Source: Chloroflexota bacterium (lineage in GTDB: Bacteria > Chloroflexota > Anaerolineae > DTLA01). Taken from it: a DNA stretch of 33,977 nucleotides. This document shows, piece after piece, positions 9,485 to 33,806 of this stretch; position 1 is the first letter of the stretch; the number at the start of each line of letters is the position of its first letter. The position numbers and the translations under genes were made by a program. The notes beneath the pieces are model-generated. The model was given only the letters and a program-made list of their open reading frames with translations. It had not been told where the DNA came from and made no database searches. The stretch spans positions 1 through 33,977 of the forward strand of contig JACIWU010000034.1 of NCBI GenBank assembly GCA_014360805.1, in the 5' to 3' direction.

Positions 9485-10942
9485 CTACCTGCCCCCTCGC
9501 TCCCGCGCTTCGGCGGCTTCCAGGATGGCGCGGATGCGTACCTCGGTCTCGGCGGGCAGCGGCGGCACGCGGTGATTCGCGAGGATGTCGCGCAGTTTCC
9601 TGCGAATGCGATCCAGCGTGGTCAGCGCGCCTTCCTGCTCCCAGGTTACCCACGGGCTGCGGTCAAAGATGGTCGGCATCCAGATTTCCGAGCGGCACAG
9701 TTTGGCCGTCTCTTTGGTGGACATGAACTCGCCGCCGGGGCCAACCTTGTCAATCAGGTCCAGCATCATCGTCGCGTCGCTGACCTCAATCCCCCGCAGG
9801 ATGCGCCGCGCCATGGCGATGATCTCATCGTTCATGATGACCGACTCCAGCGAGCCGATGTCGGCGCAGTCCAGGAAGCCCACATCGTGCACCAAGCTGG
9901 CCCCGCTCAGGCCAGACATCAGCACCTGCACCGTGCTCTCAATCGCCGCCTGCAGGTCCAGCACTTTCGCCTCGGACGCGCCCGCCGTGCCCATGAACGG
10001 CACGCCCAGGGAGCGCGAGAGGTCCGACATAGCCGCGCTGTACAGGCTCATCTCGGGGCCGCCGTAGGCCGGGCGACTGGTGCGCAGGTCCGTCGGTTCG
10101 GGCACGCCGCCGATGCACACCGGAGCGCCGCGCGCCTTCAGTTGGACGGCGACCAGCCCCGTGAGCGCGCCCGCCAGGTAGGACACCAGAAGCCCCGCGC
10201 CGGTGATGGGCGCCGTGCTGCCCGCCGTGCCCCCGCCGAGGTAGATGATGGGGATGCCGCGCTCGGCCATCCACAGCACGTTGGCCAGGTCGTGGTCGGT
10301 GGCCATCAGCGGGGACTGGAACGTCGCGAAGAACGCCAGGAAGGGCCGCGCGCGCAAGGCGTGCTCGCTGCCGGCCACGGCTACGGCGATGTCGTAGATG
10401 TCGCGCACGTTGCCCACGTTGTACGCCCACGCCATGACCGGCTTCGTCGTGTTCGCCACCATCTCGGCGAACTCGTACACGGGGGCCAGGTTCGGCGGCA
10501 CGTCGCCGATGAGGCCCAGCCCCATCACGTAGTCTATGTTCGGCAGGGCGTCGCACACCCTGGCCGTGAGCGCCGGGTCGCCCCGCCGCGTCTTGCGCCG
10601 TTCGCCGGTCTCCGGGTCTATGAAATACGTGTTCGTCAGCCCCGGGCCAAAGTGGACGCGGTCGGGGACAACCTGAATGCGCGGCTTGCCATCCCTGCTC
10701 CACAGCGTGAACGTGCGGGGCGTCGCGGCGATGGCATCCTGCACGATGTGGGGCGGAATGCGCACTCGCACGCCATCCACGCGCGCCCCGGCCTTCGCCA
10801 TCAACTCCCGCGCCTCGCTGTTGTGCACATGCACACCGGTGCGGTTCAGCACCTCCAGCGCGCCGTGATAGATGGCGCGGGCTTGCGCGTCGGAAAGGAC
10901 GCGGAACTGCGGAGTCTGATGAGCGCTGTAGTTGGTATCCAC
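9485..10942 (-). CDS. MttB/MtgB-superfamily methyltransferase, paralogue 3
   Basis: This 485-residue MttB homologue is not pyrrolysine-dependent. Family features include ALEVLNRTGVHVHNSEA, the glycine-rich GGGTAGSTAPITGAG, SEAKVLDLQ, SLVHDVGFLDC and GPGGEFMSTKET. It lacks the GSDC motif seen in paralogues 1, 2, 4 and 6; the equivalent segment reads FGPGLTNTYFID, which may reflect different substrate or cofactor-partner contacts. The start codon is GTG, preceded by AGAGGGTTCAA. It lies 33 bp after paralogue 4 and 6 bp before the Mo hydroxylase gene, so all are probably co-transcribed. Substrate unknown. Confidence 0.92.
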   Translation of the reverse strand: MDTNYSAHQTPQFRVLSDAQARAIYHGALEVLNRTGVHVHNSEARELMAKAGARVDGVRVRIPPHIVQDAIAATPRTFTLWSRDGKPRIQVVPDRVHFGPGLTNTYFIDPETGERRKTRRGDPALTARVCDALPNIDYVMGLGLIGDVPPNLAPVYEFAEMVANTTKPVMAWAYNVGNVRDIYDIAVAVAGSEHALRARPFLAFFATFQSPLMATDHDLANVLWMAERGIPIIYLGGGTAGSTAPITGAGLLVSYLAGALTGLVAVQLKARGAPVCIGGVPEPTDLRTSRPAYGGPEMSLYSAAMSDLSRSLGVPFMGTAGASEAKVLDLQAAIESTVQVLMSGLSGASLVHDVGFLDCADIGSLESVIMNDEIIAMARRILRGIEVSDATMMLDLIDKVGPGGEFMSTKETAKLCRSEIWMPTIFDRSPWVTWEQEGALTTLDRIRRKLRDILANHRVPPLPAETEVRIRAILEAAEARERGGR

Positions 10943-10975: not shown

Positions 10976-12415
10976 CTAATTGGCGCCGGAGACGATGTCC
11001 CAAACCTTCTGCCTGACCTCGGCGGGCAGGGGCTTGGGACGGTGTTCGGCCAGAATCTCCCTCACCCGGCCCGTGAGCCGCTGGCCCAGCGTGGTGGCCC
11101 CCGTTTCTAGCCACTGCGGGCGCGTCTTGCGATCCAGCAGGCCGGGGAACCAGAACTCGCGGAACCGCTGAACCGTGGCGCGGGTTGACAGGAAGTTGCC
11201 GCCCGGGCCGACGGCGTCCAGTTCGTCCACCATCAGCGTGGCGTCGCTGACCTCAATCCCCTTCATCAGATGATCGGCCATGCCCACCAACTCGTCCGTG
11301 AGCACGATCATTTCAAACGATGTGGTCAGGCCACTCTCCATGTAGCCCACGTCGTGGATGAGATTGGCGCCGCTGAGTTTGGCCATGAGCACCGACAGCA
11401 TGGCTTCCAGCGCCGCCTGCTCGTCCATCACCTTCGCGTCCGAGCAACCCGCGTAGCCCCACGTGGGCAGCCCATACCAGCGCCCCATCTCGGCCACCGC
11501 CGCCTTGGTCAACTGGAACTCGGGCGACGCGTAGCAAATCTGCATGGCGCCCATGTCCATGTGGTGAAGTCCCGCGCCGAAGACGAACGGCGCGCCGGGC
11601 CTGTGCAACTGGTGGACAACCAGGCCGCTCAGGATTTCCGCCAGCGACATCACCAGGCCGCCCGCCATCGTGATAGGAGCCGTCGCGCCCATCTGCGGCC
11701 CAGGCGAATGCACCACCGGCAGTTCGTATTCTGCCATGAGGAGCAACTTATCCACAGCCGTCTCCGACTGCTGGAGCGGCGACGACGGCTCGGAGTAGAG
11801 CAGGATGTGCTGCTGCTCGCGCAGGGCCTCGTGCCCGCCGGCGACGGCAGCGGCCATGTCTATCGCCCGCCGACAACTGGCGCCATCGTTCGTAACGAAG
11901 ACAATGGGCTTGGTGGTGTGCTCCAGCATCAGCGCCATCTGCACGTCATACGTCAGCGCCGGATTCACGTCGGACGGGATGCCGATGGACATGACGAAGT
12001 GAATGTTGGGCAGCGCGTCGCAGAGGCGATAGCCGTTCACGATGTCGGCCTGGGTGAACGGGCGATGGGCCCCCGTTTCGGGATCCAGGAAGTTCAGGCA
12101 GTCCGACCCCGTGCCGAAGTGGGTCTTCGTGCCCTCCAGAAGCATGGCCGGAGCGCCGTCTCGGTCGCACATGACGACGCGGCTCGGCGGCGACGACAGC
12201 GCCTCGGTGATCAGCCGAGCCGGGAACTTCACCAAGTTCCCGTCGGACACGAACGCGCCCGCCTTCTTGAGCATCTCCAGCGCGCCCCGATGGTGGAACC
12301 GCACGCCGGTACGGCGCAACACTTCCAGCGCGGCCAGGTGCAAATCTTGCTTCTGCTGCTCCGAAAGGAGCGCAAACTGTGGCGATGTGAACACGATGCG
12401 ATTTGCCGATTTCAT
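10976..12415 (-). CDS. MttB/MtgB-superfamily methyltransferase, paralogue 4
   Basis: A non-pyrrolysine MttB homologue of about 479 residues, closest to paralogue 2. Landmarks are LAALEVLRRTGVRFHHRGA, FGTGSDC near residue 105, YSEPSSPLQQSE, GLHHMDMG, CSDAKVMDEQ, NLIHDVGYMESG and GPGGNFLSTRAT. Two ATGs compete: 12430 gives five extra residues but no clear Shine-Dalgarno, while 12415 follows GGGAGAGAAAGGG and is preferred. It is directly downstream of methylaspartate ammonia-lyase, with about 22 bp between them from this start. The conserved Lys of the SDAK segment is present here and replaced by Cys in paralogue 2, so the two may have diverged in substrate after duplication. Confidence 0.91.
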   Translation of the reverse strand: MKSANRIVFTSPQFALLSEQQKQDLHLAALEVLRRTGVRFHHRGALEMLKKAGAFVSDGNLVKFPARLITEALSSPPSRVVMCDRDGAPAMLLEGTKTHFGTGSDCLNFLDPETGAHRPFTQADIVNGYRLCDALPNIHFVMSIGIPSDVNPALTYDVQMALMLEHTTKPIVFVTNDGASCRRAIDMAAAVAGGHEALREQQHILLYSEPSSPLQQSETAVDKLLLMAEYELPVVHSPGPQMGATAPITMAGGLVMSLAEILSGLVVHQLHRPGAPFVFGAGLHHMDMGAMQICYASPEFQLTKAAVAEMGRWYGLPTWGYAGCSDAKVMDEQAALEAMLSVLMAKLSGANLIHDVGYMESGLTTSFEMIVLTDELVGMADHLMKGIEVSDATLMVDELDAVGPGGNFLSTRATVQRFREFWFPGLLDRKTRPQWLETGATTLGQRLTGRVREILAEHRPKPLPAEVRQKVWDIVSGAN

Positions 12416-12437
12416 CCCTTTCTCTCCCATAAGAATC

Positions 12438-15529: not shown

Positions 15530-17122
15530 CTAGCCATTGTCGGCCAGGGCGTCTTCCACGGCCCTGGTCAGGGCGCCGGTCGCCACAAGCGCCGTAACCG
15601 ATTCTATGTACGGATACATCACGTCATCGCGTTCCAGGAACGGGACATGTTGCCGAATTAGCGAGTAGGCGGCCTGGGTGCCCTTGCCCAGGCGCGCGTT
15701 CGGGCCGAGGATGGCCCGCCTGAAGTCAATGCCCTGCGCCGCGGCCATCAGTTCCAGCGCCAGAATCCGCTCCACGTTGGCCGCGATCCTCCGCGCATGG
15801 CGCGCCGCGGTCGGCCCCATGCTCACGTGGTCTTCTATGTTGGCCGAGGTCGGGATGGTGTCAGCGCTGGCCGGATGCGCCAGGACTTTGTTCTCCGACG
15901 CCAGCGCCGCGGCGGTGTATTGGGTGAGCATGAAGCCCGAATTCAGGCCGCCTTCGCGGGTCAGGAACGCGGGCAACGTCTCCGCGTTGCTGGACTCATC
16001 GGTGAGGCGGGCCAGCCGCCGCTCGGACATGTTGCCCAACTCGGTGAGCGCCAGGCTGAGGTAATCCATGGCGATGGCCAGCGGCTCGCCGTGGAAGTTC
16101 CCGCCCGACAGCACCGTCGCCTCGCCGGTGTCCTCGTCAATGAAGATGAGCGGGTTGTCGGTGGCCGCGTTCAGTTCTATGCTCAGCACCCAACGGGCGT
16201 AGGCGATGGCGTCGCGCACCGCGCCGTGCACCTGCGGGATGCAGCGCAACGTGTAGGCATCCTGGACGTTGAGCGGGTCGTCGGGGCGGGTGTAGGTGCT
16301 GCCTTCTATCAGGCGGCGCAGGTAGGCGGCGCATTCCACCTGGCGGGGGTGCGGCCGCGCGGCGTGGATGCGGGCGTCAAAAGCGCGCGGCGTCCCGTAG
16401 GTGGCCTCCAGGGTCAGGCAGCCCGCGATGTCGGCCACGCGCGACAGGTTCTCGGCCTGCCACGTGGTCAGCGCGCCGATGGCCGCCATCAGGGCGGTGC
16501 CGTTGGTGAGGGCAAGCCCCTCCTTGGCCTCCAGCGTCGTGGGGCGCAGACCGGCCCGCGCCAGCGCCTCGGCGCCGGGCAGCCGCTCACCCTGGTACAC
16601 CGCCTCGCCCAGGCCGATGATGGGCAGCGCCATGTGCGCCAGGGGAGCCAGATCCCCGCTGGCTCCCAGCGACCCCTGCGCGGGCACCACCGGATGCACC
16701 CCGCGGTTCAGCATGTCCAGCAGCAGTTGCAGCGTCTCCAAGCGGATGCCCGAATGCCCCTTGGCGAGGGCATTGGCGCGGATGAGCATCATGGCGCGCA
16801 CCGTCGGCTCGTCCAGCGGCTCCCCTACCCCCACGGCGTGGCTCATGAGGATATTGCGCTGCAATTGGCGAACCTGGTCGGGCGGGATGATGCGCCCCTT
16901 GAAGGCCCCGAACCCCGTCGTAACGCCGTACACAATCTCGCCGCGGGCGATGAACTCCTGCACGGCCCTTTCGGCCCGCCGCACCCGCGCGCAACTCTCC
17001 TCGGACAGGGCGACCTCCAGGCTCTGGCCCCTGGCCGGCGCGTAGGCGACCGCGACTACATCCTTCAGGGTGAGGCTGTTTCCGTCAATCACCAGCAGAG
17101 AAACCAAGTCCAAACGCTCCAC
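15530..17122 (-). CDS. hutH: Histidine ammonia-lyase
   Basis: This 530-residue MIO-dependent aromatic amino acid lyase would convert L-histidine to urocanate and ammonia. The Ala-Ser-Gly triad that cyclises to the MIO cofactor is at 154-156 in GSLGASGDLAPLAH, and the loop tyrosine is Y65 in VYGVTTGFG. NGTALMAA and DNPLIF are also characteristic. The length is slightly above the usual 505-515. The start is uncertain: GTG at 17122 is used here, without a good Shine-Dalgarno, and a second in-frame GTG lies 30 bp inside. It follows urocanate hydratase, as in hut operons, but a nested inverted repeat separates the two. Action on an N-methylated histidine is conceivable but not shown; the intact MIO triad favours ordinary histidine. 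Confidence 0.93.
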   Translation of the reverse strand: MERLDLVSLLVIDGNSLTLKDVVAVAYAPARGQSLEVALSEESCARVRRAERAVQEFIARGEIVYGVTTGFGAFKGRIIPPDQVRQLQRNILMSHAVGVGEPLDEPTVRAMMLIRANALAKGHSGIRLETLQLLLDMLNRGVHPVVPAQGSLGASGDLAPLAHMALPIIGLGEAVYQGERLPGAEALARAGLRPTTLEAKEGLALTNGTALMAAIGALTTWQAENLSRVADIAGCLTLEATYGTPRAFDARIHAARPHPRQVECAAYLRRLIEGSTYTRPDDPLNVQDAYTLRCIPQVHGAVRDAIAYARWVLSIELNAATDNPLIFIDEDTGEATVLSGGNFHGEPLAIAMDYLSLALTELGNMSERRLARLTDESSNAETLPAFLTREGGLNSGFMLTQYTAAALASENKVLAHPASADTIPTSANIEDHVSMGPTAARHARRIAANVERILALELMAAAQGIDFRRAILGPNARLGKGTQAAYSLIRQHVPFLERDDVMYPYIESVTALVATGALTRAVEDALADNG

Positions 17123-17251: not shown

Positions 17252-18901
17252 CTATTTCAGCATAGGAATCTTCACGCCGCGCTCTTTCGCCACCTGGATG
17301 GCCCGCTCGTAGCCGGCGTCCGCATGGCGCACCACGCCCATCCCTGGGTCGGTGGTCAGGACGCGCTCCAATCGGCGTGCGGCTTCGGGCGTGCCGTCGG
17401 CCACGATGACCATGCCCGCGTGTTGGCTGTAGCCGATGCCCACGCCCCCGCCGTGGTGGAAACTCACCCACGTGGCGCCGTTCACCGCGTTGATGAGCGC
17501 GTTCAGAATCGCCCAGTCGGAGATGGCGTCAGAGCCGTCCTTCATCCCCTCCGTCTCGCGGCGCGGCGACGCCACCGAACCGGCGTCCAGGTGATCGCGC
17601 CCGATGACGATGGGGGCCTTCACCCTACCGCTGGCCACCAAGTCGTTGAAGGCCAGGCCGGCCTTGGCGCGCTCGCCGTACCCCAGCCAGCAGATGCGCG
17701 ACGGAAGGCCCTGGAACTTGACCTTCTTCTGCGCCATCTTGATCCAGCGCACCAGGTGCTCGTCGTGCGGGAAAAGGTCCATGATAACCTGGTCGGTTAC
17801 GTAGATGTCTTCGGGGTCGCCCGAAAGCGCCACCCAGCGGAATGGCCCCTTGCCCTCGCAGAAAAGCGGGCGGATGTACAGCGGCACGAACCCCTGGAAG
17901 TCAAAGGCGTTCTTGACGCCCATATCATAGGCCCGCTGGCGGATGTTGTTGCCGTAATCAAAGACCACGCTCCCCTTCGCCTGGAAGTCCAGCATGGCCT
18001 GCACGTGGGCCGCCATGGACTCCATGGCGCGGCGCTTGAACGCTTCGGGGTCGCGCTCGCGCAGGGCCTTGGCCTCCTCAAAGGTCATGCCGCGCGGGAA
18101 GTAGCGCAGGGGGTCATGGGCGCTCGTCTGGTCGGTTACCACGTCGGGCACGACGCCGCGCTGCACCAGTTCGGGCAGCACCTCGGCGGCATTGCCGATC
18201 AGCCCGACCGACAGCGGCTTCTCCGCGGCTACCGCCTCCTCCACCCACGTCATCGCCTCTTCTATGTTCTCGGCGATGCGGTCCAGGTAGCCGGTGCGCA
18301 GTCGGCGCTCGGCCCGCCAGCGGTCAATCTCCACCACCAGCGCCACACCTTCGTTCATGGTAACGGCAAGGGGCTGAGCGCCGCCCATCTCGCCCAGGCC
18401 CGCGGTGAGCACGAACTTGCCCTTCAGGCTGGGCCAGCCCTGGGCCTTGGCGCACGCCGCCATCGTCTCGTAGGTCCCTTGCAGGATGCCCTGTGTGCCG
18501 ATGTAAATCCAACTTCCGGCCGTCATCTGGCCGTACATGATGAGGCCCTTGCGCTCCAGTTCGTCAAAGTAGTCCTGCGTGGCCCAGGCCGGCACCAAGT
18601 TGGAGTTGGCAATGAGCACGCGAGGGGCATCGGTGTGGGTCTTGAAGATGGCGACGGGCTTGCCGCTCTGCACCAGCAGCGTCTCGTCGGGCTCCAGGTT
18701 GCGCAAACTATCCAGGATGGCGTCAAAGCATTCCCAGTTGCGGGCCGCCTTGCCGCTCCCCCCGTACACAATGAGGTTGTCGGGGTCAAAGGCCACGTCG
18801 GGATCCAGGTTGTGCTGGATCATGCGATACGCAGCCTCTATGAGCCAGTTCTTGCATGTCAGTTGGGTACCCGTAGGTGGATGTACGACTCGCCTCGCCA
18901 T
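17252..18901 (-). CDS. hutU: Urocanate hydratase
   Basis: Urocanase adds water to urocanate, using tightly bound NAD+, to give 4-imidazolone-5-propionate. The protein has 549 residues, the usual length. The urocanase signature is clear in [20 protein letters not shown], with the conserved Cys. Other family blocks are [49 protein letters not shown] and [18 protein letters not shown]. The ATG follows GGGAG and AGAGG. It starts only 15 bp after the ABC ATPase stop, tying histidine breakdown to the transporter operon. The next hut enzyme, imidazolonepropionase, is not in the window. Confidence 0.96.
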
Positions 18902-23453: not shown

Positions 23454-25160
23454 CTACGCCTCCGGGTCGTACCAGGCGTTGTACAGGATGTCGTAGTTGG
23501 TCGGGTGCGCGCCCACGTTCTTGAACTTCTTGTTCGCAATGTACCAAACATTGGTCCAGAACGCAATCCCGACCGAGCCGCGCTCCATCTGGATGTCTTC
23601 CAGTTTGCACATGATAGCGCGGCGCTTCTCCACATCCAGCGTCCGCTCGGCTTCCTTGAGCAGCGTCGTGAACTCCGGATCCACCCAGTAGGTCTCGTTC
23701 CACGGCACGGGCTTGCCGGTGTCGTCGGCGGTGTAGGCCAGCGCCAGCACCATGGTGCCCAGCGGACGGTGCGCCCAGATGGTGATGCCCAGCGGGACCT
23801 CGGTCCAGATGTCCCAGTACTGCGCCGAGGGCAAGATGTTGAGTTGGATGTCAAACCCGCCCGCGGCTGCCGATTCGCGCAGCGCCTGCGCCATGGCCGG
23901 CTCGGCGCGCGCCTGCTGGGTGGACAGTTCCACCGACAGTCCGTTGGGATAGCCGGCTTCGGCCAGCAACTTCTTGGCGCCCTCCGGGTCGTAGGGCGGG
24001 ATGTCCTTCGGGCAGTACTCGGGGTGGATCGGCGCCACATGCGCGTCGTGGCCCAGCACGCCCTCGCCAAACCAGGCCAGGTCCAGCATCTTCTGGCGGT
24101 CAATGCACTTCTTGAGCGCGAGGCGCACGCGGTTGTCGTTCCACGGCTCCTTGTCCACGCGCATGCGGATGACGAAAGTCTGGGCAGTCGGTGTGGAGTA
24201 GACGGTTACCGTGGGCAAGTCCTTCACCGCCTGCCAGATTTCCGCGGACGGGTTGAAGATGTTGTCCACCTGCCCGCTCTGCATGGCCGCGATGCGGGCC
24301 GCATCGTCCTGCCCCAGGTCCAGGTACACCAGCCGATCCAGGTAGGGGTACGGCTTGCCGTCGTCGGCCATCAGCCAGTAGTCCTCGCGGCGGCGGAACA
24401 CGGCGCGCTCGGTCTCGCGGAACTCTTCCAACAGGAACGGCCCCGTGCCGATGGGCTGCTTGGTGATGTCGCCCTCAAAGGTGCGCGGGACGATCATGGC
24501 CGGGTAGTGGAACAGGTGCTCGGGCACGGCAATCTGCGGCGAATCCAGATGCAACTTGACGGTGTAGTCGTCCACCTTCTCAATGCCGGTCGGCTGGAGG
24601 TAACTCAGCAGGCCCAGCATGGACGAACCCACGTCCTTGTCCAGCCACTGCTGGAAGTTGAAGATGACGTCGTCGGCGGTCAGTTCCTGGCCGTTGTTGA
24701 ACTTGATGCCCTTCCGGATGTGGAGCGTCCACTCCTTGACCTCGGCGTCGGCCTCCCACTTCTCCAGCAGCCAGGGGTGCGTGATGTTGTCGTAGTCGGT
24801 GTAGGTGAGGTACTCGCAGACCTGGCGGAACTGGTTCACGCCTTCAATCCAGGACAGGCGCGCAGGGTGATCCACGCGCGGCACGCGGGTGGCGATGGTC
24901 ATGGTGCCGCCGCGCTTGGGGCCGGCCGGCTTGGGCGTGGCCGTGGGCTGAACGGCAGGAGGCTTCGTGGGCGCGGTGGTGGGGGTCGCCTTCGTGCCGC
25001 ACGCCGACAGGAATGCGGTCGCGCTGGCCAGGGACATGCCCAGCAGAGTGGCGTTGCGAAGGAACTCGCGGCGCGTGATCCTCCCCTTCTTGTAGAGTTC
25101 CTTCAGTTCGGGGATATACGGGTGCTCGTGCTGCGTCTCATCCTTCTTGATGATCTCCAT
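23454..25160 (-). CDS. Peptide-type ABC transporter substrate-binding lipoprotein, Tat-type signal
   Basis: This 568-residue solute-binding protein belongs to family 5 (DppA/OppA type). Its N terminus has a twin-arginine motif (TRREFLRN, R30-R31), a hydrophobic stretch and a lipobox LSAC with C54, then a Thr/Pro-rich linker (about 56-85). This indicates export, possibly folded via Tat, and lipid anchoring outside the membrane. Family blocks include KEWTLHIRKGIKFNNGQELT, GTGPFLLEEF and the C-terminal half with repeated aromatic motifs. The start follows GAGGAGGAG. It is the first gene after the minus-strand promoter at 25411-25439. The ligand is unknown; the downstream hut and methyltransferase genes suggest a histidine-derived or N-methylated compound. 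Confidence 0.95.
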   Translation of the reverse strand: MEIIKKDETQHEHPYIPELKELYKKGRITRREFLRNATLLGMSLASATAFLSACGTKATPTTAPTKPPAVQPTATPKPAGPKRGGTMTIATRVPRVDHPARLSWIEGVNQFRQVCEYLTYTDYDNITHPWLLEKWEADAEVKEWTLHIRKGIKFNNGQELTADDVIFNFQQWLDKDVGSSMLGLLSYLQPTGIEKVDDYTVKLHLDSPQIAVPEHLFHYPAMIVPRTFEGDITKQPIGTGPFLLEEFRETERAVFRRREDYWLMADDGKPYPYLDRLVYLDLGQDDAARIAAMQSGQVDNIFNPSAEIWQAVKDLPTVTVYSTPTAQTFVIRMRVDKEPWNDNRVRLALKKCIDRQKMLDLAWFGEGVLGHDAHVAPIHPEYCPKDIPPYDPEGAKKLLAEAGYPNGLSVELSTQQARAEPAMAQALRESAAAGGFDIQLNILPSAQYWDIWTEVPLGITIWAHRPLGTMVLALAYTADDTGKPVPWNETYWVDPEFTTLLKEAERTLDVEKRRAIMCKLEDIQMERGSVGIAFWTNVWYIANKKFKNVGAHPTNYDILYNAWYDPEA

Positions 25161-25181
25161 CAGATACTCCTCCTCTGGTTT

Positions 25182-25255
25182 AGAGAATCTGCCCCCGACG
25201 GTGGGGTTGGGGAACCTGCTTCGGTTCCGGCGTCCGAGTCATCGCAAGAATCTCT
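25182..25255 (-). promoter_or_regulatory. Structured leader of the transporter operon
   Basis: The predicted leader is about 240 nt long. Near the start codon it can fold as an outer stem (25247-25255 with 25182-25190, one mismatch) enclosing two hairpins: GGAACC/GGTTCC at 25211-25228, and CCCC (25203-25206) with GGGG (within 25192-25196). The shape could be a regulatory leader or a dispersed repeat; I recognise no known riboswitch core with confidence. Confidence 0.3.
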
Positions 25256-25410
25256 CCGAGCGCACCTCCTTTCTGTCCGGTGAGAAATGGTGGACCACGG
25301 GCTTTCTATGCTATGTCTCGCAGCAACGATTGCGCAAGGTGAGTCCATTGCCGCCCGTGGCCGGTAGGTGGGGCATAGCAATTCACGGTCGGCGTCTGTG
25401 TGATGCATCA

Positions 25411-25439
25411 AGTATAGCACATGCTATGCCACCTGTCAA
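25411..25439 (-). promoter_or_regulatory. Near-consensus promoter of the transporter/hut/mttB operon
   Basis: On the minus strand TTGACA (25439-25434), a 17-bp spacer and TATACT (25416-25411) form a near-perfect sigma-70 promoter. Predicted start about 25404. It reads toward the binding-protein gene at 25160 and, with no strong terminator seen before 4353, may serve about 21 kb. A palindrome overlaps its -10 and spacer. Confidence 0.8.
25414..25427. promoter_or_regulatory. Palindrome in divergent promoter region, candidate GntR operator
   Basis: ATAGCA-CA-TGCTAT is an inverted repeat with 6-bp arms inside the minus-strand promoter, overlapping its -10. Related half-sites lie at 25308-25314 (ATGCTAT), 25375-25380 (ATAGCA) and 25475-25481 (GTGCTAT, across the gntR -10). 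The adjacent divergent GntR gene is the natural candidate regulator. Part of the similarity at the two -10 boxes could simply be extended -10 sequence. Confidence 0.55.
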
Positions 25440-25455
25440 TAGAGATACGCAAGTA

Positions 25456-25484
25456 TTGCAATTCTGTGTTTCTTGTGCTATAAT
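25456..25484 (+). promoter_or_regulatory. Promoter of the gntR gene
   Basis: TTGCAA (25456-25461), a 17-bp spacer ending in TGC (extended -10) and a perfect TATAAT (25479-25484). The predicted start is near 25491, about 55 nt before the GTG at 25546. Confidence 0.75.
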
Positions 25485-25545
25485 GCGTACGAATGGACAG
25501 CACACCGGCATGGCGTATCGGGGTCATTCCCGCCAGGAGGTTTCC

Positions 25546-26220
25546 GTGGCGACTACCCAGCCCGGCGAGACATCCAAATCGGTGATCTACAAACAGTTGC
25601 GGCGGGCCATCATCATGGGGCACCTCAAGCCCGGCCTGAAACTGGACGTGGACGAACTGGCGCGCAAGTATGGCACCAGCGTTACCCCCGTCCGCGACGC
25701 CCTGCAGATGCTGGGCCAGGAAGGCCTCGTAACCATCAAGTCCCGCTCGGGCTACTTCGTTACGCATACCACCCTCAAAGAACTGCGCGATCTCCTGGAC
25801 CTCCGCGAGATTCTGGAAGTCGCCGCCGTGGAGCGCGCCATCGGTCGCATCACCGAGGAGCAGTTGGAGCAACTGGCGCACGTCCACGCCCCCTATACCG
25901 GCGACGACGACGAATCCTACGACCGCTACACCGACGAGAACCGCCGCTTCCACTACCTCCTCGCCAAGGCGTCGGGCAACGACCAACTGGCCGAGACCCT
26001 GGGCCGGCTCCACGACCGCCTGGCCCGTTTCATGGTGCTGCGCCACGCGGGGCGCATTCAGCCCGAAAGCCACGCCCGCATTCTGGAAGCCATCCGCCTG
26101 GGCGACAGGGACAGGGCCATCGCCCTCACGCGCCAGGAACTGAACGCCACCCGCGACGCCATCCTGGACCGCGTGATGCAGGAAGAGGCCGCCAACTGGC
26201 CCGTCGGCGCGATCCGCTGA
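25546..26220 (+). CDS. GntR-family transcriptional regulator, FCD type
   Basis: A 224-residue regulator and the only plus-strand gene. Residues 10-75 are the GntR winged helix (SVIYKQLRRAIIMGHLKPG, LARKYGTSVTPVRDALQML, GYFVTHTTL). Residues 80-215 are an all-helical FCD ligand domain with RDLLDLREILE, DENRRFHYLLAKASGN (possible metal ligands D130, H136) and SHARILEAIRLGD (H176); a C-terminal His ligand is not obvious. GTG at 25546 is preferred because AGGAGG ends 5 nt before it and the promoter lies just upstream; an open frame continues upstream to 25147, but that stretch holds both promoters. It is divergent from the transporter operon, so local and self-regulation is likely. It converges on mttB5 with only 10 bp between stops. 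Confidence 0.93.
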   Translation: MATTQPGETSKSVIYKQLRRAIIMGHLKPGLKLDVDELARKYGTSVTPVRDALQMLGQEGLVTIKSRSGYFVTHTTLKELRDLLDLREILEVAAVERAIGRITEEQLEQLAHVHAPYTGDDDESYDRYTDENRRFHYLLAKASGNDQLAETLGRLHDRLARFMVLRHAGRIQPESHARILEAIRLGDRDRAIALTRQELNATRDAILDRVMQEEAANWPVGAIR

Positions 26221-26230
26221 GCCTCCTCCC

Positions 26231-27670
26231 CTATTCCAGTCTGATGCGAAACTCGCTTCGGATGGCGGCATCCACATCCGCCGGCCATGCTGGCGGCCGC
26301 TGGCCTTCCAGAAGTGCGGCGGCCCGCTCCTGCGCCCGTACGCGGGTATCCCGCCGGCCGCCCTCCTCCCACATGGCGCGGCTCTGGCGGTCGGCCACGC
26401 GCGGGTAGAAGAACTCGCCCCGCATGTGCCGCACCGTGTGCGGGTCCGCCAGGTAATGCCCGCCCGGCCCCACGCGCCCGATGACCTCCACCGCCATCGC
26501 CTCGTCTGTTATGTCAATCCCGCGGAGCGCCCGCATCGCCATCCCCACGATCTCGTCGTCTATCACCGCCTGCTCGGGCGAGACCGCGCTCATGTTCGTT
26601 ACCATGCCGATGGCGTGGTGGATGTAGTTGCACCCACCCATGGCCGCCAGCAAGAACGTTACCATCTTCTCGTACCCCGCCTGGGCGTCGGGAATCTTGG
26701 CGTCGCTCATCCCGCCCGAGCCGTAGATGGGTACGCCGTAGAACTGCGCCATCTGCGCGGCGGCCGCCTGCATCATCCCGAACTCCACCGCCCCGCCCAG
26801 GTATCCGCCGCTTCGCATGTCGGCCACGCCCGGGATATAGCCGGCCAGCACCGGCGTGCCGGGCCGCGCCAACTGGGTCAGCACAATCCCGCTCAACTGC
26901 TCGGCGTTCAGTTGCACCAGCGTCCCCGCCAGCGTTACGGGCGATGTGGAGCCGGCCATCGGCGCCGACGACAGCGCCACCGGCAGGCCCCGCGCGCACC
27001 ATTCCAGCAGGATGTCGGTAACTTCCGTATCCAGGCGCAAGGGGCTGACCATCCAACTCGTGATGGCGGAGATGAAAGGGCGCGCCCGCAGGCGATCTTC
27101 CCCGCCCGCCAGGATCGCGCCCAGACGGATCACCTGTCGCGCGCCCGCCACCGAGTCCACGCCGCCCATCACGTGTTTGCCCGTGCCCCACAGGCACGCG
27201 TAGAACCGATTCACGGGCACGTCCTCGCGCGGCACGTCTGTGGGATACAGGGGCGCGACGACAAAATCGCAATGCTCCAGCGCGTCCGCGAGCCGCGCCA
27301 TCATCGCCACGTCGCGGAGCGTGCACGGGCGCGGCGTGTCGGCCCCCGCATCCAGCACCATCGTGGGCGAGCCGCCCGTGCCCGCGTACACCCGCCTGCC
27401 CTCCAGCACGATGTCGTGCTCGGGCAGCCGCCCGGCCAGCAACACCCGTTGCGGGACGGTCTTCAGCGCGGCGTCCACCATCGCCCGCGGGATGCGCACC
27501 CGGTGGCCGTCCACGGATGCGCCGCCCTCGCGGTACAGGCGCAGCGCCGTCTCGTTCTCCACCAGGATTCCCGTCGTCTCCAGCACCGCCAGCGACGCCC
27601 GGTGAATCTCCTGCACCTGCGCCTGACTCAAGGGACGGTACTGCCCGCCTTCAGGCCCCGGTCGCGCCAT
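26231..27670 (-). CDS. MttB/MtgB-superfamily methyltransferase, paralogue 5
   Basis: Of the six copies, this 479-residue protein looks most like classical MttB/MtgB. Motifs include IHRASLAVLETTGILVENE, GSTSPVTLAGTLVQLNAEQ, SGGMSDAKIPDAQAGYEKM and DEIVGMAMRALRGIDI. There is no in-frame amber codon at the pyrrolysine position or elsewhere. Unlike the others it has NYIHHAIGM instead of the VHDVG block, and GTGGSPTMVLD instead of GSDC. It probably demethylates a betaine- or trimethylamine-like substrate onto the corrinoid protein encoded upstream. The start follows GCAGGAGGTGAAGC. It lies 13 bp after paralogue 6 and ends the methyl-transfer unit. Confidence 0.93.
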   Translation of the reverse strand: MARPGPEGGQYRPLSQAQVQEIHRASLAVLETTGILVENETALRLYREGGASVDGHRVRIPRAMVDAALKTVPQRVLLAGRLPEHDIVLEGRRVYAGTGGSPTMVLDAGADTPRPCTLRDVAMMARLADALEHCDFVVAPLYPTDVPREDVPVNRFYACLWGTGKHVMGGVDSVAGARQVIRLGAILAGGEDRLRARPFISAITSWMVSPLRLDTEVTDILLEWCARGLPVALSSAPMAGSTSPVTLAGTLVQLNAEQLSGIVLTQLARPGTPVLAGYIPGVADMRSGGYLGGAVEFGMMQAAAAQMAQFYGVPIYGSGGMSDAKIPDAQAGYEKMVTFLLAAMGGCNYIHHAIGMVTNMSAVSPEQAVIDDEIVGMAMRALRGIDITDEAMAVEVIGRVGPGGHYLADPHTVRHMRGEFFYPRVADRQSRAMWEEGGRRDTRVRAQERAAALLEGQRPPAWPADVDAAIRSEFRIRLE

Positions 27671-27683
27671 GCTTCACCTCCTG

Positions 27684-29129
27684 CTACTTGCCCGCGCGAC
27701 GCCGCAGCACGGCCCGAATCTCTTCCTCGGCGGCCTCCGGAAGCGGCGGCACCTCATGCTCGCTCAGGATGCGGCGCGCCCGCTCGTTGGCGCGGGCAGC
27801 CATGTCCTTGCCGCCCTTGTCGCGCCACTCGTCGTAGCGCATGCGGTCTATGACGCGCGGGCGGAACTGCGCCCACTTCCAGTTGCGCAGCGTGTGCTCA
27901 TCGGCGAGGAAGCCGCCGCCGGGCGTCGCGCGATGGATGGCCTCGCGGGCCAGCGTGCGCTCGCTCACCTCAACGCCGTTCATGATGAAGCGCACGTCGC
28001 GGATAATCTCATCGGCGATGACCAGCATCTCCATGGACGACGTGGAGCCATACTCTATGTACCCAACATCGTGCACCAGGTTGCAGCGGGTCAGGTAGGC
28101 GGTCATGATGGTGATGGCAGCCTCCAGGCCGGCTTGAGCGTCCACCACTTTGCTGTCGGTGGCCCCCGCCGCGCCCCACGTGGGCAGGCCGTAGAATCGG
28201 GCGATGTCGCACCAGGCCGCCATACCCGTGGGCCATTCGGGCGCGCCGTAACTGACGATGGCCGATTTCATGTCCAGCGCGGCGGTGTTCATGCCGTAGA
28301 GGAACGGCGTGCCGGGCCGCACCAACTGCGTGAGCACAAGCCCCACCAGGCACTCGGCGTTGCCCAGCGCCAGCGCCCCGGCCAACGTGATCGGCCCGCC
28401 ACCCCCCGTGTTCGGCGACGGCGGGTAGGTTACCGGAATCCCCTTCTCGGCGCAGAACAGCAACTTGTCCACCGACTCGTCGGGATACAGCAAGGGCGAG
28501 ATGGACTCGGCGTAGAGCATGAGGAACGGCCGCTCGCGCAGGCGCTGCTCGCTGCCGGCGACGGCGCACGCGATGCGGTAGATGTCCTCCATGTCGCCAC
28601 GATGATTCGCCGTGTACACGTTGGGCTTCACCGACCCGCGAACCATGCCGATGAACCCGTGAATGTATACATCCAGCGGCGGCACGTCCGACGGGTTGCT
28701 CATGGACATGACGCACGAAATCTCGTCCAGGCCATCAATGAGACGCGCGATACGGTACACGTCGTCATACGTGGCCTTGCGGCGTTGGCCGGTCTCCACG
28801 TCAATCGTGAACACGCAGTCCGAACCGCTGCCGAAGAACACGTTGCCGGCTTCCAGGGGCATCACCAACTCGCCCAGGCGGTTGTACATCGGGATGCGCG
28901 ACGGCGCCGAGGCGATGGCGTCCATGACGAGGCGCTCCGGAATCTTGATGCGCCCGTCCGACTCCCAAGCGCCGGCGTCCAGAAGCAATTCCCGCGCTTT
29001 CTCGTTCTTCATCACGATGCCGGTGCGAGACAGGATGTCCAGACTGGCATTGTGAATGGCCAAAATCTGCTCGTCCGACAACATGCGGATCGTTGGACGC
29101 AGTGTCTCAATGGGTATCTGCTCCGACAC
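27684..29129 (-). CDS. MttB/MtgB-superfamily methyltransferase, paralogue 6
   Basis: This 481-residue non-pyrrolysine MttB homologue shows IHNASLDILSRTGIVMKNEK, GSGSDC at 101-105, ATDSKVVDAQAGLEA, NLVHDVGYIEYG and a C terminus with GGGFLADEHTLRNWKW, close to paralogue 1. The start is GTG, preceded by AAAGGAGATTCCT. It is separated from the corrinoid-protein gene by a 341-bp repeat-bearing gap, in which no clear promoter was found; it is followed closely by paralogue 5. Proximity suggests that paralogues 5 and 6 use that corrinoid protein. Substrate unknown. Confidence 0.92.
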   Translation of the reverse strand: MSEQIPIETLRPTIRMLSDEQILAIHNASLDILSRTGIVMKNEKARELLLDAGAWESDGRIKIPERLVMDAIASAPSRIPMYNRLGELVMPLEAGNVFFGSGSDCVFTIDVETGQRRKATYDDVYRIARLIDGLDEISCVMSMSNPSDVPPLDVYIHGFIGMVRGSVKPNVYTANHRGDMEDIYRIACAVAGSEQRLRERPFLMLYAESISPLLYPDESVDKLLFCAEKGIPVTYPPSPNTGGGGPITLAGALALGNAECLVGLVLTQLVRPGTPFLYGMNTAALDMKSAIVSYGAPEWPTGMAAWCDIARFYGLPTWGAAGATDSKVVDAQAGLEAAITIMTAYLTRCNLVHDVGYIEYGSTSSMEMLVIADEIIRDVRFIMNGVEVSERTLAREAIHRATPGGGFLADEHTLRNWKWAQFRPRVIDRMRYDEWRDKGGKDMAARANERARRILSEHEVPPLPEAAEEEIRAVLRRRAGK

Positions 29130-29470: not shown

Positions 29471-30103
29471 CTACGCCAACTTGCGGGCCACGTCCACGGC
29501 GGTGGCCGCGTCGGGCGCGTAGGCGTCGGCGCCGATCTGCTGGGCGAAGGCCGCCGTTACCGGCGCGCCGCCCACCATGATCTTGACCGAATCCCGTAGC
29601 CCGGCTTCCTGCAGTGCGTCAATGGTGGACTTCATGTTGACCATCGTCGTCGTCAGCAGGGCGCTCATGCCCACGATGCGCGGCTTGTGCTCCTGCACCG
29701 CCTGCACGAAGGCCTCGGGCGCCACGTCCGTGCCCAGGTCCACCGTCTCAAACCCGGCGCCTTCCAGCATCATCTTGACCAGGTTCTTGCCGATGTCGTG
29801 CAGGTCGCCCTTCACCGTGCCGATGACGTACTTGCCCACCGTGGGCGAGTCGCTGGCCGACAGCAGCGGGCGCAGCACGTTCATCCCCGCGTGCATGGCG
29901 CGCGCCGCGATGAGCACTTCGGGCACGAACAGGTCGCCCGCCTTGAAATCCTTGCCCACCTGGTCCATGCCGGCGATGAGGCCGTCCTGGAGAATCTCCT
30001 TCGGCGTCAGGCCCGAGTCCAAAGCCTGCTGCACCAGTTCGGCCACTTCCTCGTCTTCGCCCTCGTACAACTTGGTTGCGATCTTCTGCAGAATGTCTGC
30101 CAT
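29471..30103 (-). CDS. Methyltransferase cognate corrinoid protein (MttC/MtbC type)
   Basis: This 210-residue protein carries the methyl group on cobalamin between methyltransferases. Residues 1-85 are the helical cap (B12-binding_2 domain), and 90-210 are the Rossmann-like B12 domain. The base-off/His-on motif is D100-L-H102-D-I-G105, so H102 should be the lower cobalt ligand; SALLTTT (147-153) and GGAP (178-181) complete the site. The ATG at 30103 follows GGAGGAGGGTATTCC; the frame stays open further upstream but only through the neighbouring gene's end. It is the sole corrinoid protein in the window and would have to serve up to six MttB homologues, or others are encoded elsewhere. It is embedded with its activase candidates and MeTr. 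Confidence 0.97.
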   Translation of the reverse strand: MADILQKIATKLYEGEDEEVAELVQQALDSGLTPKEILQDGLIAGMDQVGKDFKAGDLFVPEVLIAARAMHAGMNVLRPLLSASDSPTVGKYVIGTVKGDLHDIGKNLVKMMLEGAGFETVDLGTDVAPEAFVQAVQEHKPRIVGMSALLTTTMVNMKSTIDALQEAGLRDSVKIMVGGAPVTAAFAQQIGADAYAPDAATAVDVARKLA

Positions 30104-30150: not shown

Positions 30151-32166
30151 TCACCGCGCGGGGCTGGGACGCCCGGCAGCGGTGAAGGTAAGTTCCGTGC
30201 ACAGATACACCTCGTGCCCCCATCCGGCCTGCGCCATCGCGACGCGGTCCTCCCGCGCGATGTGCACATCCACGTCGGCAGCGCCTGCCCGCCGCACCGC
30301 AGCGGCCAGTTCCGCAGGAACCGTCCGCTCAGCGTAGGCGACGCCATCCTCCACGGTCGGGAAGTCGCGCACTTCGCCAGGTAGGTGCACGCGGAACGCC
30401 TCGCCTCCGGGGAGTGGCTGCACCATGACCCGCCACGTCTGAACGACTCCGCCCGCTACGGCTCCGACCGCGTTGGCCACATCGGCGTGGTCTGGGATAA
30501 TCAAATCCGTGTGCAGCATCTCGGCCACCGCCGGCATGTACGCAGCGGCCGGCGCGCCGATAGCCACGATCGGCTCCCGCAGGCCCAGCCGACAGGCCAG
30601 GCTGGAACCGTTGCCGTTGTCGACAGAGCGCGCAAACAGCGCTTCCAGCGCGGGCATCGTCCAATCGGCAGCCACACCCTCGTCGGCGAGGACTTTGGTA
30701 ACCAGTTCCCGCGCGACCTTCTCGGAGACCGCGGCCACCACCCGTTCGCAGAACGCCTCGGCCGTGCAGCCCAGCCTTGCCGCAAGCAACCCCGCGCCCA
30801 CGACCGACGCGCGGGCGTCCCACCGGCGGAAGCGCCCCAGCACATGCAGGGCGTCGGTGGGGGTGAAGCCAGCCCGGGCTACCAGGCCCAGCGCCTCCAG
30901 GCGCTCCAGCCGCCTGAGCGCCACCAGCGGATACCCGCCCTCGCGCAACAGCGCCGTTACAGGGCGCGGCCCATCGGCCAGGCTCCGCAGGAGCGACCGC
31001 TCCTCATCGGCCAGGGCGTTGGCGGGCCGGCGCTGCAGAAGCGCGAACTGCCCGTCCCACGGCTCGTCCGCGCCCTGTGTCGCTTGGCGCTCCAACTCGG
31101 CCACGATGTCGGGATAGTCCGAGGCCAACAGGCACAGCGGAGCCACGCGCCCCGGCCCGATGTGCAGCCGGCGCTCCCCGTCCAGGCGCACCAGGCTGTC
31201 GCCGCCCAGGCCGGTGGTTCGGACGTCCACGGCCTCCACCATCGTCTGCCACTGGCCGACGCGCGCGCCCTCGGGGTTGAGGCGCGGGTGCCCGCCGCGC
31301 AGCGCCGCGATGTCCGTCGTCGTTCCGCCCACGTCTACTACCCACACGTCGCGGCGGCCGGCCAGGTGCCAGGCTCCGACGGCGCTCGCGGCAGGGCCGG
31401 AGAGAATCGTCTCAACGGGCCTGAGCATAGCCCAGTCGGCGCGCACCAGCGAGCCGTCGCCTTTCACCACCATCAGCGGCGCAGAAATCCCCTGTTCGGC
31501 CAACGTGCGCTGAACCGTGGAAATGAGGTCTTGCAAGAGCGGGATAAGGCGCGCGTTGAGCGCCGCCGTCGTCGCCCGCCGCACGGCGTTCAGGCGAACC
31601 GACAGTTCGTGCCCGCACGTTATCGGCAGCGGACGCCCGTCGTCCGAATGCAGCGCGGTCATCTCCTCAATGATGGCGCGCGCGCGAAGTTCGTGCGCGG
31701 GGTTGCGTGCCGCGAAGTAGCCCGAAACCGCGAAGGCCGCCACGCGCCCGATCCGCGATGCCACAGCCTCGCGGACGGCCTGCTCGTCCAGCGGCTCCAC
31801 CTCGTCGCCGATGGCGTCGTGGCCGCCTCGCACATAGACTACATCTGGGGTAACCAGGGCCCCCTCAAACCCGAATTCGCGCATCAGGTCGCGGTCGTAG
31901 CCGATGAGGAGCAGGCACACAGGGCTGCCCTGGCCTTCCACGATGGCGTTGGTGGCCAGCGTCGTGGACAGCGCCACCAGACTCACGCGCGACGCTGCCA
32001 CAGCCCCCTGCGACAGCACCGCCGCGATGGCCTTGCCAATGCCCACCGACAAATCCCAGCGCGTCGTCAGAGCCTTGGCCGAATGGAGCACCTGGCCCGT
32101 GCCTTCGTCCACCAGCACGGCGTCGGTGTATGTCCCGCCCGTGTCAATGCCGAGCGCGATGGTCAT
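30151..32166 (-). CDS. Hydantoinase A/oxoprolinase-family ASKHA ATPase
   Basis: This 671-residue protein starts with the family phosphate-binding loop LGIDTGGTYTDAVLVDEG. STTLATNAIVEGQG and a second nucleotide motif VVDVGGTTTDIAAL follow. A helical stretch in the second half (around GPRPVTALLREGGYP) looks winged-helix-like, and the C-terminal part ends with ADVANAVGAVAGG and a beta-rich tail. Classical members hydrolyse hydantoins or 5-oxoproline with ATP and normally pair with a HyuB subunit, which is absent here. The gene overlaps a MetH-activation-like gene by ATGA and sits beside the corrinoid gene, so an ATP-dependent role in corrinoid activation is an attractive inference; N-methylhydantoin hydrolysis is the alternative. 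The ATG at 32166 is preferred over a much longer frame that would cover the neighbour. Confidence 0.85.
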   Translation of the reverse strand: MTIALGIDTGGTYTDAVLVDEGTGQVLHSAKALTTRWDLSVGIGKAIAAVLSQGAVAASRVSLVALSTTLATNAIVEGQGSPVCLLLIGYDRDLMREFGFEGALVTPDVVYVRGGHDAIGDEVEPLDEQAVREAVASRIGRVAAFAVSGYFAARNPAHELRARAIIEEMTALHSDDGRPLPITCGHELSVRLNAVRRATTAALNARLIPLLQDLISTVQRTLAEQGISAPLMVVKGDGSLVRADWAMLRPVETILSGPAASAVGAWHLAGRRDVWVVDVGGTTTDIAALRGGHPRLNPEGARVGQWQTMVEAVDVRTTGLGGDSLVRLDGERRLHIGPGRVAPLCLLASDYPDIVAELERQATQGADEPWDGQFALLQRRPANALADEERSLLRSLADGPRPVTALLREGGYPLVALRRLERLEALGLVARAGFTPTDALHVLGRFRRWDARASVVGAGLLAARLGCTAEAFCERVVAAVSEKVARELVTKVLADEGVAADWTMPALEALFARSVDNGNGSSLACRLGLREPIVAIGAPAAAYMPAVAEMLHTDLIIPDHADVANAVGAVAGGVVQTWRVMVQPLPGGEAFRVHLPGEVRDFPTVEDGVAYAERTVPAELAAAVRRAGAADVDVHIAREDRVAMAQAGWGHEVYLCTELTFTAAGRPSPAR

Positions 32167-32870
32167 TCGGCATCCTCCCGCCTGCGCCAGCAGGTGTCGG
32201 CCAGGGCACAGGCGCGGCACAGCGCCCCGACGTGGGCGGACGAAAAGCCAGGCCCCACGCCGATAAGTCCCGAGCAAGATTTGTGCGGGCGCAGAACGCA
32301 GTAGGGCGACAACTCCACGCCGATGTCGGCGAGGGGCAAGAGCGCACACAAATCCCGCTGCCCGTCCACGGGCCATCCCACCAGCGACCCAGGGCTGAGC
32401 GCAGGCGACACACCCCATCCCTCCGCGGCCGCGCGCTGCTCGGCGATGGTTCGCACCGCCTCGCCCACCGCTCCCAGCACGAGGACGCCTGCGGTGTCCA
32501 GCATGAACGCCAGCAGGGCCTGGCCCTGTCGGTGCAGGTCGTTCACCCGCATCTCCAGTTCCAGCCCGATGGTCCACACGGCCACGAGGACGCGACGCGC
32601 CTCTCGTACAAACGCCGCACCCTGCCCCATCTTCAGTTCGCGCGCCCCGTTGGATGTGCGTAGCACAAGGGCGTCGTCCGACGCGCCGGCCACCTCAAAC
32701 TCGTCCCAGACCGCCACCGGACGGGCCAAATCCAGCGCCATCAGCGCCGCCATGTCGGCGGCTTGGCGCGCCAGCGGGCTGTGGGATTTGCGGTGGCCCG
32801 CGCGCACCTGGGATTCCAGGATGGCCTCCGACGTCAGGGTTATGGGAATGTCGCGCACGATGGTCGCCAT
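32163..32870 (-). CDS. MetH activation-domain-like protein with C-terminal Cys cluster
   Basis: A 235-residue protein resembling stand-alone vitamin B12-dependent methionine synthase activation domains. The block SPGSLVGWPVDGQ, then IGVELSPYCVLRPHKSCSG and LIGVGPGF, matches the region that in MetH binds S-adenosylmethionine during reductive methylation of cobalamin. C199, C218, C221 and C227 (CRACALADTC at the end) could hold an Fe-S cluster. No signal or membrane segment. The start follows GAGGAG; the stop overlaps the ASKHA ATPase start (ATGA). Probable role: reactivation of oxidised Co(II) corrinoid for the methyltransferases. This rests on partial motif resemblance and context. Confidence 0.75.
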   Translation of the reverse strand: MATIVRDIPITLTSEAILESQVRAGHRKSHSPLARQAADMAALMALDLARPVAVWDEFEVAGASDDALVLRTSNGARELKMGQGAAFVREARRVLVAVWTIGLELEMRVNDLHRQGQALLAFMLDTAGVLVLGAVGEAVRTIAEQRAAAEGWGVSPALSPGSLVGWPVDGQRDLCALLPLADIGVELSPYCVLRPHKSCSGLIGVGPGFSSAHVGALCRACALADTCWRRREDAE

Positions 32871-32902: not shown

Positions 32903-33775
32903 CTACTTGGCTTGCGCAGCCTTGAGGCGTTTCTTGTAGTCCTTCAAGTACCGCATGGCGTAATCATCGCGGCCCAGGATGAGATCGGTCGCCAGAATCG
33001 CAGGCCGCACCTTGGCCGCGTCCACAATCGGGCAGTTGACGCCGCGCAGGATGGCCATGGCCAGGAAGACGCCGTTGATGGTCTCGCGCTCGGGCAGGCC
33101 GAACGAGATGTTGCTGGCGCCCAGGGTCATGTTCACGCCCAACTCCTCGCGCACCATGCGGATGGCGTCCAGCGTTACCAGGCCGGCGCGGGAATCGGCG
33201 CCCACGGTGAGGGCCAGGCAGTCAATGACCACATCCTGGCGCGGGATGCCCATGGCTTCGGCGCGCTCCACGATGCGGCGGGCCACCGCCAGGCGGCCGT
33301 CCGCGGTCGGCGGAATGCCCTGCTCGTCCATGGCAAGCCCGATGACGGCGGCGCCGAATTCGGCCACCAGCGGCAGGACGCGGTCCAGGCTGGCCGGTTC
33401 GCCGTTGACCGAGTTCACCAGCGGCTTGCCGTTGGGGGCCAACTCGCGGTACAGGCCCAGCGCCGCGCGCAAGGCGGCGGGGTTGGCGCTGTCTATGCAG
33501 AGTGGAACGTCCACCGTCTCGGCCACCAGTCGCACGGCCTTCGGCAACAGGTCCACCTCGTCAACGCCGGCGGCGCCCACATTCACGTCCAGAACGTCGG
33601 CGCCGGCGTCTACCTGGGCCTCGGCTTCCTGGCGCACGATGTCCAGGTTGCCCTCGGCCAGGGCCGCAGCCAAGCGCTTCTTGCCGGTGGGGTTGATTCG
33701 CTCGCCGATGAGGACGGTGGGCCTGTCGGGGCTAATGACTACGGTCTTGCGGGCACTCCTCAGGACTGTCTCCAT
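32903..33775 (-). CDS. Methyltetrahydrofolate:corrinoid methyltransferase (MtgA/AcsE/MetH-like)
   Basis: A 290-residue pterin-binding TIM barrel that moves a methyl group between corrinoid protein and tetrahydrofolate. Family signatures are LIGERINPTGKKRL, AGADVLDVNVG, LCIDSANPAALRAAL, LVNSVNGEPASLDR and LGASNISFGLPER, the last including the Asn that binds the pterin in homologues. In MtgA systems it makes methyl-THF from methyl-corrinoid, feeding one-carbon metabolism or the Wood-Ljungdahl pathway. ATGs at 33781 and 33775 are both open; 33775 has the better 6-nt spacing to GGAG. It heads the methyl-transfer cluster, downstream of an IclR-type regulator. Confidence 0.95.
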   Translation of the reverse strand: METVLRSARKTVVISPDRPTVLIGERINPTGKKRLAAALAEGNLDIVRQEAEAQVDAGADVLDVNVGAAGVDEVDLLPKAVRLVAETVDVPLCIDSANPAALRAALGLYRELAPNGKPLVNSVNGEPASLDRVLPLVAEFGAAVIGLAMDEQGIPPTADGRLAVARRIVERAEAMGIPRQDVVIDCLALTVGADSRAGLVTLDAIRMVREELGVNMTLGASNISFGLPERETINGVFLAMAILRGVNCPIVDAAKVRPAILATDLILGRDDYAMRYLKDYKKRLKAAQAK

Positions 33776-33806
33776 ACGCATCTCCTACATTGGCATGATG
33801 GGCATA

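Follow-up and report, generated by a model that had tools for sequence, protein, structure and literature searches.

An uncultured Anaerolineae bacterium carries, adjoining its genes for B12-dependent methyl transfer, a pair of overlapping genes encoding a stand-alone protein akin to the activation domain of methionine synthase (P1) and a hydantoinase A-type ASKHA ATPase (HyuA). Judged by fold and gene context, the two proteins may act as a module dedicated to the ATP-driven reactivation of the neighbouring corrinoid protein (CoP), a reading to which we assign a probability of roughly 0.55. Corrinoid methyltransferases stall when their Co(I) gets oxidised, and the restart of stalled B12 proteins is usually the job of RamA-type proteins; the P1-HyuA pair is likely a variant of ATP-driven corrinoid reactivation that is not of the RamA type.

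Gene order at the locus

The window, by which we mean the whole stretch of 33,977 nucleotides that was analysed, shows the minus-strand order MeTr, P1, HyuA, CoP, MttB and MttB, with the following features:

32903..33781, minus strand: MeTr, methyltetrahydrofolate:corrinoid methyltransferase (NF005719), directly upstream of P1
32163..32870, minus strand: P1, 235 aa, stand-alone MetH-activation-domain-like protein, assigned by fold and profile homology
30151..32166, minus strand: HyuA-type ASKHA ATPase, 671 aa (PF05378 and PF01968)
29471..30103, minus strand: CoP, 210 aa, corrinoid protein of the MtgC/TIGR02370 type with DLHDIG at position 100, the presumed client
27684..29129, minus strand: MttB superfamily methyltransferase 1 (MTI)
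26231..27670, minus strand: MttB superfamily methyltransferase 2 (MTI)

An earlier note on this DNA had described a pair of open reading frames overlapping by ATGA between the corrinoid and MeTr genes, and the coordinates, the gene order and the overlap of the P1 stop with the HyuA start (...GATGCCGAATGACCATC...) were all seen as described. Both reading frames were taken as coding because the pair is retained in synteny within the same genus, at an identity of 73% for P1 and 84% for HyuA. The start of HyuA was placed at the ATG at 32166, the position where the matches of its orthologues begin, and a longer reading frame of 808 aa opening with GTG has no orthologue support. A gene for a GntR/FCD regulator sits on the plus strand (25147-26220), with the MttB genes on one side and the Opp transporter on the other. 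The reading frame at 25408-26277 on the minus strand has no family match and is probably an antisense shadow of this regulator gene; it was discarded as an artefact.

P1: fold, AdoMet loop and cysteines

P1 matches no Pfam or NCBIfam family, PF02965 remaining below its gathering score, and in one relative paired with RACo the PF02965 match is weak (20 bits vs a cut-off of 25). Its kinship emerges from comparison with TM0269 of Thermotoga maritima, a separate MetH reactivation domain (PDB 1J6R), which was matched at E 3e-5 in a single-sequence search and at E 7e-15 in a profile search. An AlphaFold2 model of P1 built from 12 homologues (pLDDT 88, pTM 0.86) matches 1J6R with a Foldseek E of 3e-12 and a Z of 18.7, 192 residues superposing at an rmsd of 2.5 A, while MetH reactivation domains score at Z of about 14-16.5 and the next fold class at 5.5. 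All chains that Foldseek matched to the model at E<=0.001 are methionine synthase or its activation domain. The description of P1 as a MetH activation-like protein, which had been made from the letters of the sequence, is borne out by the TM0269 profile match and by the fold.

In MetH, the Arg and the Tyr of the RxSPGY loop bind AdoMet, and in the alignments TM0269 and Thermus MetH show this loop as RxSPGY or RxSFGY. P1 has ALSPGS at this place, with both residues replaced; among 29 homologues the Tyr is missing in all and the Arg in 27, the remaining 2 having kept it. Since P1 is devoid of the AdoMet motif, its sequence indicates that AdoMet-dependent reductive methylation should not be expected of it. 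P1 and TM0269 thus share a stand-alone activation-domain fold, whereas TM0269 keeps RxSPGY and P1 has a CX2CX5C tail in addition and an ATPase as its partner.

This tail accounts for three of the six cysteines of P1: C218-x2-C221-x5-C227, at the C-terminus, is invariant in 29/29 homologues. C175 is Cys in 7/8 aligned members of the HyuA-paired group and Phe in 7/7 RACo-paired ones, and C191 and C199 show no conservation among homologues. What had been read as a four-Cys cluster is therefore retained as an invariant three-Cys motif, the fourth Cys (C175) being specific to one clade. The CX2CX5C tail, together with C175 in the HyuA-paired clade, is the probable seat of an Fe-S or other metal centre; in the AlphaFold2 model the tail is placed with low confidence.

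HyuA: family, motifs and relatives

The assignment of HyuA as a hydantoinase A-type ASKHA ATPase holds, with Pfam matches to Hydant_A_N (PF05378) and to part of Hydantoinase_A (PF01968), a further short match to MutL, and intact phosphate motifs (DTGGTYTD at 8 and DVGGTTTD at 278) that vary little or not at all among 19 orthologues. Across the same 19 orthologues no invariant Cys was found, and the Pfam matches of HyuA itself include neither an Fe-S domain nor RACo_C_ter (PF14574). Its relatives by sequence and fold, members of the same superfamily, are caprolactamase/5-oxoprolinase, N-methylhydantoinase and the ATPase subunits of acetone/acetophenone carboxylase, which were matched at profile E values of 5e-45 to 3e-19 over residues 4-332, the sequence match stopping near residue 340. 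RACo appeared in the fold search as a generic ASKHA match with a TM of 0.19-0.20, no closer than other ASKHA proteins, and this low similarity is no evidence for a differing function.

In N-methylhydantoinase, 5-oxoprolinase/caprolactamase and acetone/acetophenone carboxylase, catalysis requires a HyuB-type subunit or domain besides the ATPase part. No HyuB was found at the window locus, and the genome's own HyuB, used as query, had no match in the fetched loci of HyuA orthologues, several of which are cut by contig ends. This single HyuB of the genome (PF02538) lies on contig C63 beside another HyuA of its own. A HyuB partner, which the earlier note had named as speaking against its reading, was accordingly seen at none of the fetched orthologue loci, and an identity of the window HyuA as a HyuAB hydantoinase was rejected on this ground.

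Pairing and co-occurrence across Anaerolineae

The P1-HyuA pair is real and non-random. In a sample of 298 genomes of the class Anaerolineae, P1 homologues are present in 73 and HyuA orthologues, at a cut-off of E below about 1e-95 and counted by hand, in 66; the genome lists behind the co-occurrence tests were transcribed by hand. P1 is found in 45 of the 66 genomes with HyuA vs 28 of the 232 without (odds ratio 15.6, p 1.6e-18, kinship ignored), and counted by family the association persists (18/23 vs 11/36, p=4.8e-4). Strong CoP matches occur in 64/66 HyuA-orthologue genomes vs 135/232 others, again with kinship ignored. The two genes adjoin in nine genomes (the window's own, G001, G002, G014, G019, G086, G133, G223 and G271), and a scan of public contigs gave 8 loci, all from Chloroflexota/Anaerolineae MAGs, on which the naming of the class is based.

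P1 homologues also adjoin or cluster with RACo, in seven loci (L017/L067, L018/L068, L019, L020/L069, L023, L026/L050 and L027), one of which carries HyuA as well, and further P1 relatives stand without an adjoining HyuA or RACo. In the tree, the HyuA-paired P1 proteins fall within one clade (support 100/99), unpaired members included, and the RACo-paired ones lie outside it in several places, the deep forks being weak. Because P1 pairs with HyuA or with RACo at different loci, the data support the view that HyuA, beside P1, fills the slot that RACo has elsewhere. At L050 (5355-10048) RACo and P1 form a tandem, and a HyuA orthologue converges on them.

HyuA orthologues are adjoined by MeTr, P1, CoP, MttB or RACo in about half of the fetched loci, spread over many families. 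About 20 orthologues are solitary, corrinoid genes being absent nearby, and two P1-HyuA pairs (L092 and L097) lack a methyltransferase gene in cis. Among 60 CoP loci (L117-L176), ranked by TIGR02370 score and many of them shortened by contig ends, HyuA was observed within about 9 kb of the CoP gene in 3 (about 0.05 expected) and RACo likewise in 3 (0.25 expected). HyuA and RACo are not mutually exclusive: at L098 (1244-12106) a HyuA orthologue is found between two corrinoid-protein genes together with UroD-type genes, with RACo in the same 17 kb.

Relation of the pair to RamA

The earlier note had regarded the pair as a possible replacement of RamA, with the two elements of RamA perhaps split over two chains. 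RACo, RamA and AE activators (DUF4445, PF14574 plus Fer2) resemble the pair in that an ASKHA ATPase is encoded with corrinoid methyltransferase genes and, in places, beside P1 homologues; unlike the pair, they are single chains with their own 2Fe-2S, linker, middle and RACo_C_ter domains, all of which the window HyuA, a member of the HyuA branch of ASKHA, does without. The window contig indeed gives no match to RACo/RamA (PF14574), whereas the genome carries two RACo_C_ter genes on other contigs, C28 and C1, so that the reported absence of a RamA-like activase is confined to this contig. RACo1, on C28, adjoins an ACS-type MeTr, and its neighbourhood is likely a CODH/ACS operon to judge from protein sizes and starts. 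RACo2, on C1, lies at L085 (8236-13865), where no methyltransferase gene was found near it. This protein has Fer2 and RACo domains, and its gene is aligned with those for a SpoIIE protein, a FeFe-hydrogenase-like protein containing PAS and the FeFe-hydrogenase C-terminal domain, a small thioredoxin-like 2Fe-2S protein and a 192-aa protein that Pfam does not match.

RACo is present in 9/9 pair genomes and in 64/66 HyuA-orthologue genomes. RamA in every genome with the pair is an outcome that had been named beforehand as counting against replacement, and it is what was found, although of the two RACo genes in this genome at least one is linked to CODH/ACS by its position. A replacement of RamA can thus be spoken of at the level of the locus but not at that of the genome. 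The absence of RamA from the cluster was dismissed as evidence: neither RACo nor HyuA lies within about 9 kb in 54/60 CoP loci, and since most CoP loci have no RACo in cis, its absence there is uninformative. The linkage of HyuA to MeTr, CoP and MttB nonetheless greatly exceeds what chance would give.

The notion of a RamA split over two chains had to be given up. In L068 the RACo that adjoins P1 is complete, with Fer2, linker, middle and C-terminal domains, and because a P1 homologue pairs there with a RACo that bears its own 2Fe-2S domain, P1 was excluded as the part that would supply the Fe-S centre of a divided RamA; HyuA, for its part, is no nearer to RACo than other ASKHA proteins are.

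Proposed mechanism and alternative readings

In MetH the B12 domain is the docking site of the activation domain, and the reduction of Co(II) to Co(I) is enabled by ASKHA ATPases such as RACo. The mechanism proposed for the pair starts from the observed fold homology of P1, the loss of its AdoMet residues, its invariant cysteines, the intact ATPase motifs of HyuA, the gene coupling, the co-occurrence and the alternation of HyuA with RACo. To these we add, by inference, how the two proteins would act: P1, a separate protein with the activation-domain fold of MetH/TM0269, would dock on the B12 domain of CoP at the Co(II) stage, the metal centre in its CX2CX5C tail would provide the entry for electrons, and ATP binding and hydrolysis by HyuA would drive the uphill step from Co(II) to Co(I) in the way of the ASKHA domain of RACo/RamA. 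Several observations weigh against this mechanism: RACo is present in all nine pair genomes, some HyuA orthologues are solitary, two pairs lack a methyltransferase gene in cis, some P1 relatives adjoin neither ATPase, the solved structures nearest to HyuA are of ATP-dependent amide hydrolases and ketone carboxylases, and the Cys tail is modelled with low confidence. In this 96%-complete genome no match to full-length MetH or PF02965 was found, and service to MetH was rejected as the role of the pair for a genome without MetH.

Alternatively, HyuA and P1 might use ATP to load cobamide onto CoP or eject it, with no redox step, as a corrinoid chaperone or cofactor-exchange system comparable to DdrAB or GlmL/MutL. 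Two-subunit ASKHA reactivases are known from diol dehydratase, and the match of HyuA to MutL/GlmL, an accessory ASKHA protein of B12 mutases, passes the Pfam cut-off; that match, however, spans the N-terminal phosphate motif alone (residues 5-56), a pure chaperone has no obvious need for the invariant Cys triad of P1, and RACo, a redox activator, also partners P1 homologues. We consider this reading unlikely.

Quite unlikely, too, is a catabolic HyuA that performs an ATP-dependent ring opening or acts as a kinase on an N-methylated or imidazole-derived substrate (e.g. hydantoin-5-propionate from histidine), its link with P1 being incidental. N-methylhydantoinase, caprolactamase and acetone carboxylase as its closest structural relatives would fit such a role, as would the histidine ammonia-lyase, urocanase and molybdenum hydroxylase in the same operon, the solitary orthologues and the presence of HyuA in betaine clusters elsewhere (PMC9768040). 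Yet a HyuB partner was not found in the fetched loci, the loci fetched from other genera show no Hut genes close to HyuA, MeTr and P1 repeatedly accompany HyuA where the cluster has no substrate genes, and P1 and HyuA co-occur genome-wide. That P1 is a TM0269-type AdoMet-dependent activator of a split MetH-like system of MeTr and CoP, with HyuA as accessory, is very improbable, for although P1 matches TM0269 in fold and profile and MeTr and CoP are the counterparts of the folate and B12 modules of MetH, the Tyr of RxSPGY is gone in 29/29 homologues and the Arg in 27/29, and a full MetH was not found in this genome.

Comparison with known systems and significance

Two proteins have been proposed for B12 reactivation in Phaeobacter inhibens as well, encoded by a RamA-like DUF4445 gene and a DUF1638 gene (PMC5764234). 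This pair differs from P1-HyuA in its RamA-like ATPase and its DUF1638 partner, and it includes no activation-domain homologue (PMC5764234). A further known case is 'HydA', a HyuA-family protein that strain DCMF, Sporomusa ovata and Frackibacter encode in their clusters for glycine betaine methyltransferases, for which no function was given and which in DCMF showed higher protein abundance with betaine (PMC9768040). Like the window HyuA, it is encoded inside an MttB/CoP/MTII cluster, the likeness being one of gene context (PMC9768040). No report of HyuA or of a P1-HyuA pair as a corrinoid activator was found in the literature searched, subscription papers lying mostly outside that search.

Many MttB clusters are without a recognisable activase. 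If reactivation of CoP by P1 and HyuA is the true reading, the pair fills part of this gap in Anaerolineae, a function is suggested for the HyuA genes in betaine clusters, and a two-chain system becomes available in which the docking and electron-transferring part and the ATPase are separable for study. More tentatively, and in our estimate somewhat short of an even chance, a HyuA ATPase with an AdoMet-independent, metal-carrying activation-domain partner might constitute a further class of corrinoid reactivase beside the AdoMet/flavodoxin (MetH) and RACo/RamA classes, one that would include the betaine-cluster HydA of other phyla.

The catabolic operon in the same window

The minus strand of the window also carries a catabolic operon (95-25160) with four further MttB genes and two genes that score above the NCBIfam equivalog cut-off:

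2754-4205, minus strand: MttB gene
4353-5783, minus strand: MttB gene
9485-10942, minus strand: MttB gene
10976-12430, minus strand: MttB gene
15530-17122, minus strand: histidine ammonia-lyase, above the equivalog cut-off
17252-18901, minus strand: urocanase, above the equivalog cut-off

The same operon encodes a methylaspartate ammonia-lyase, a molybdenum hydroxylase with its FAD subunit, a PLP enzyme of Cys/Met metabolism, an MmgE/PrpD protein and an Opp-type transporter. Its predicted gene content suggests that the operon breaks down a methylated histidine such as hercynine.
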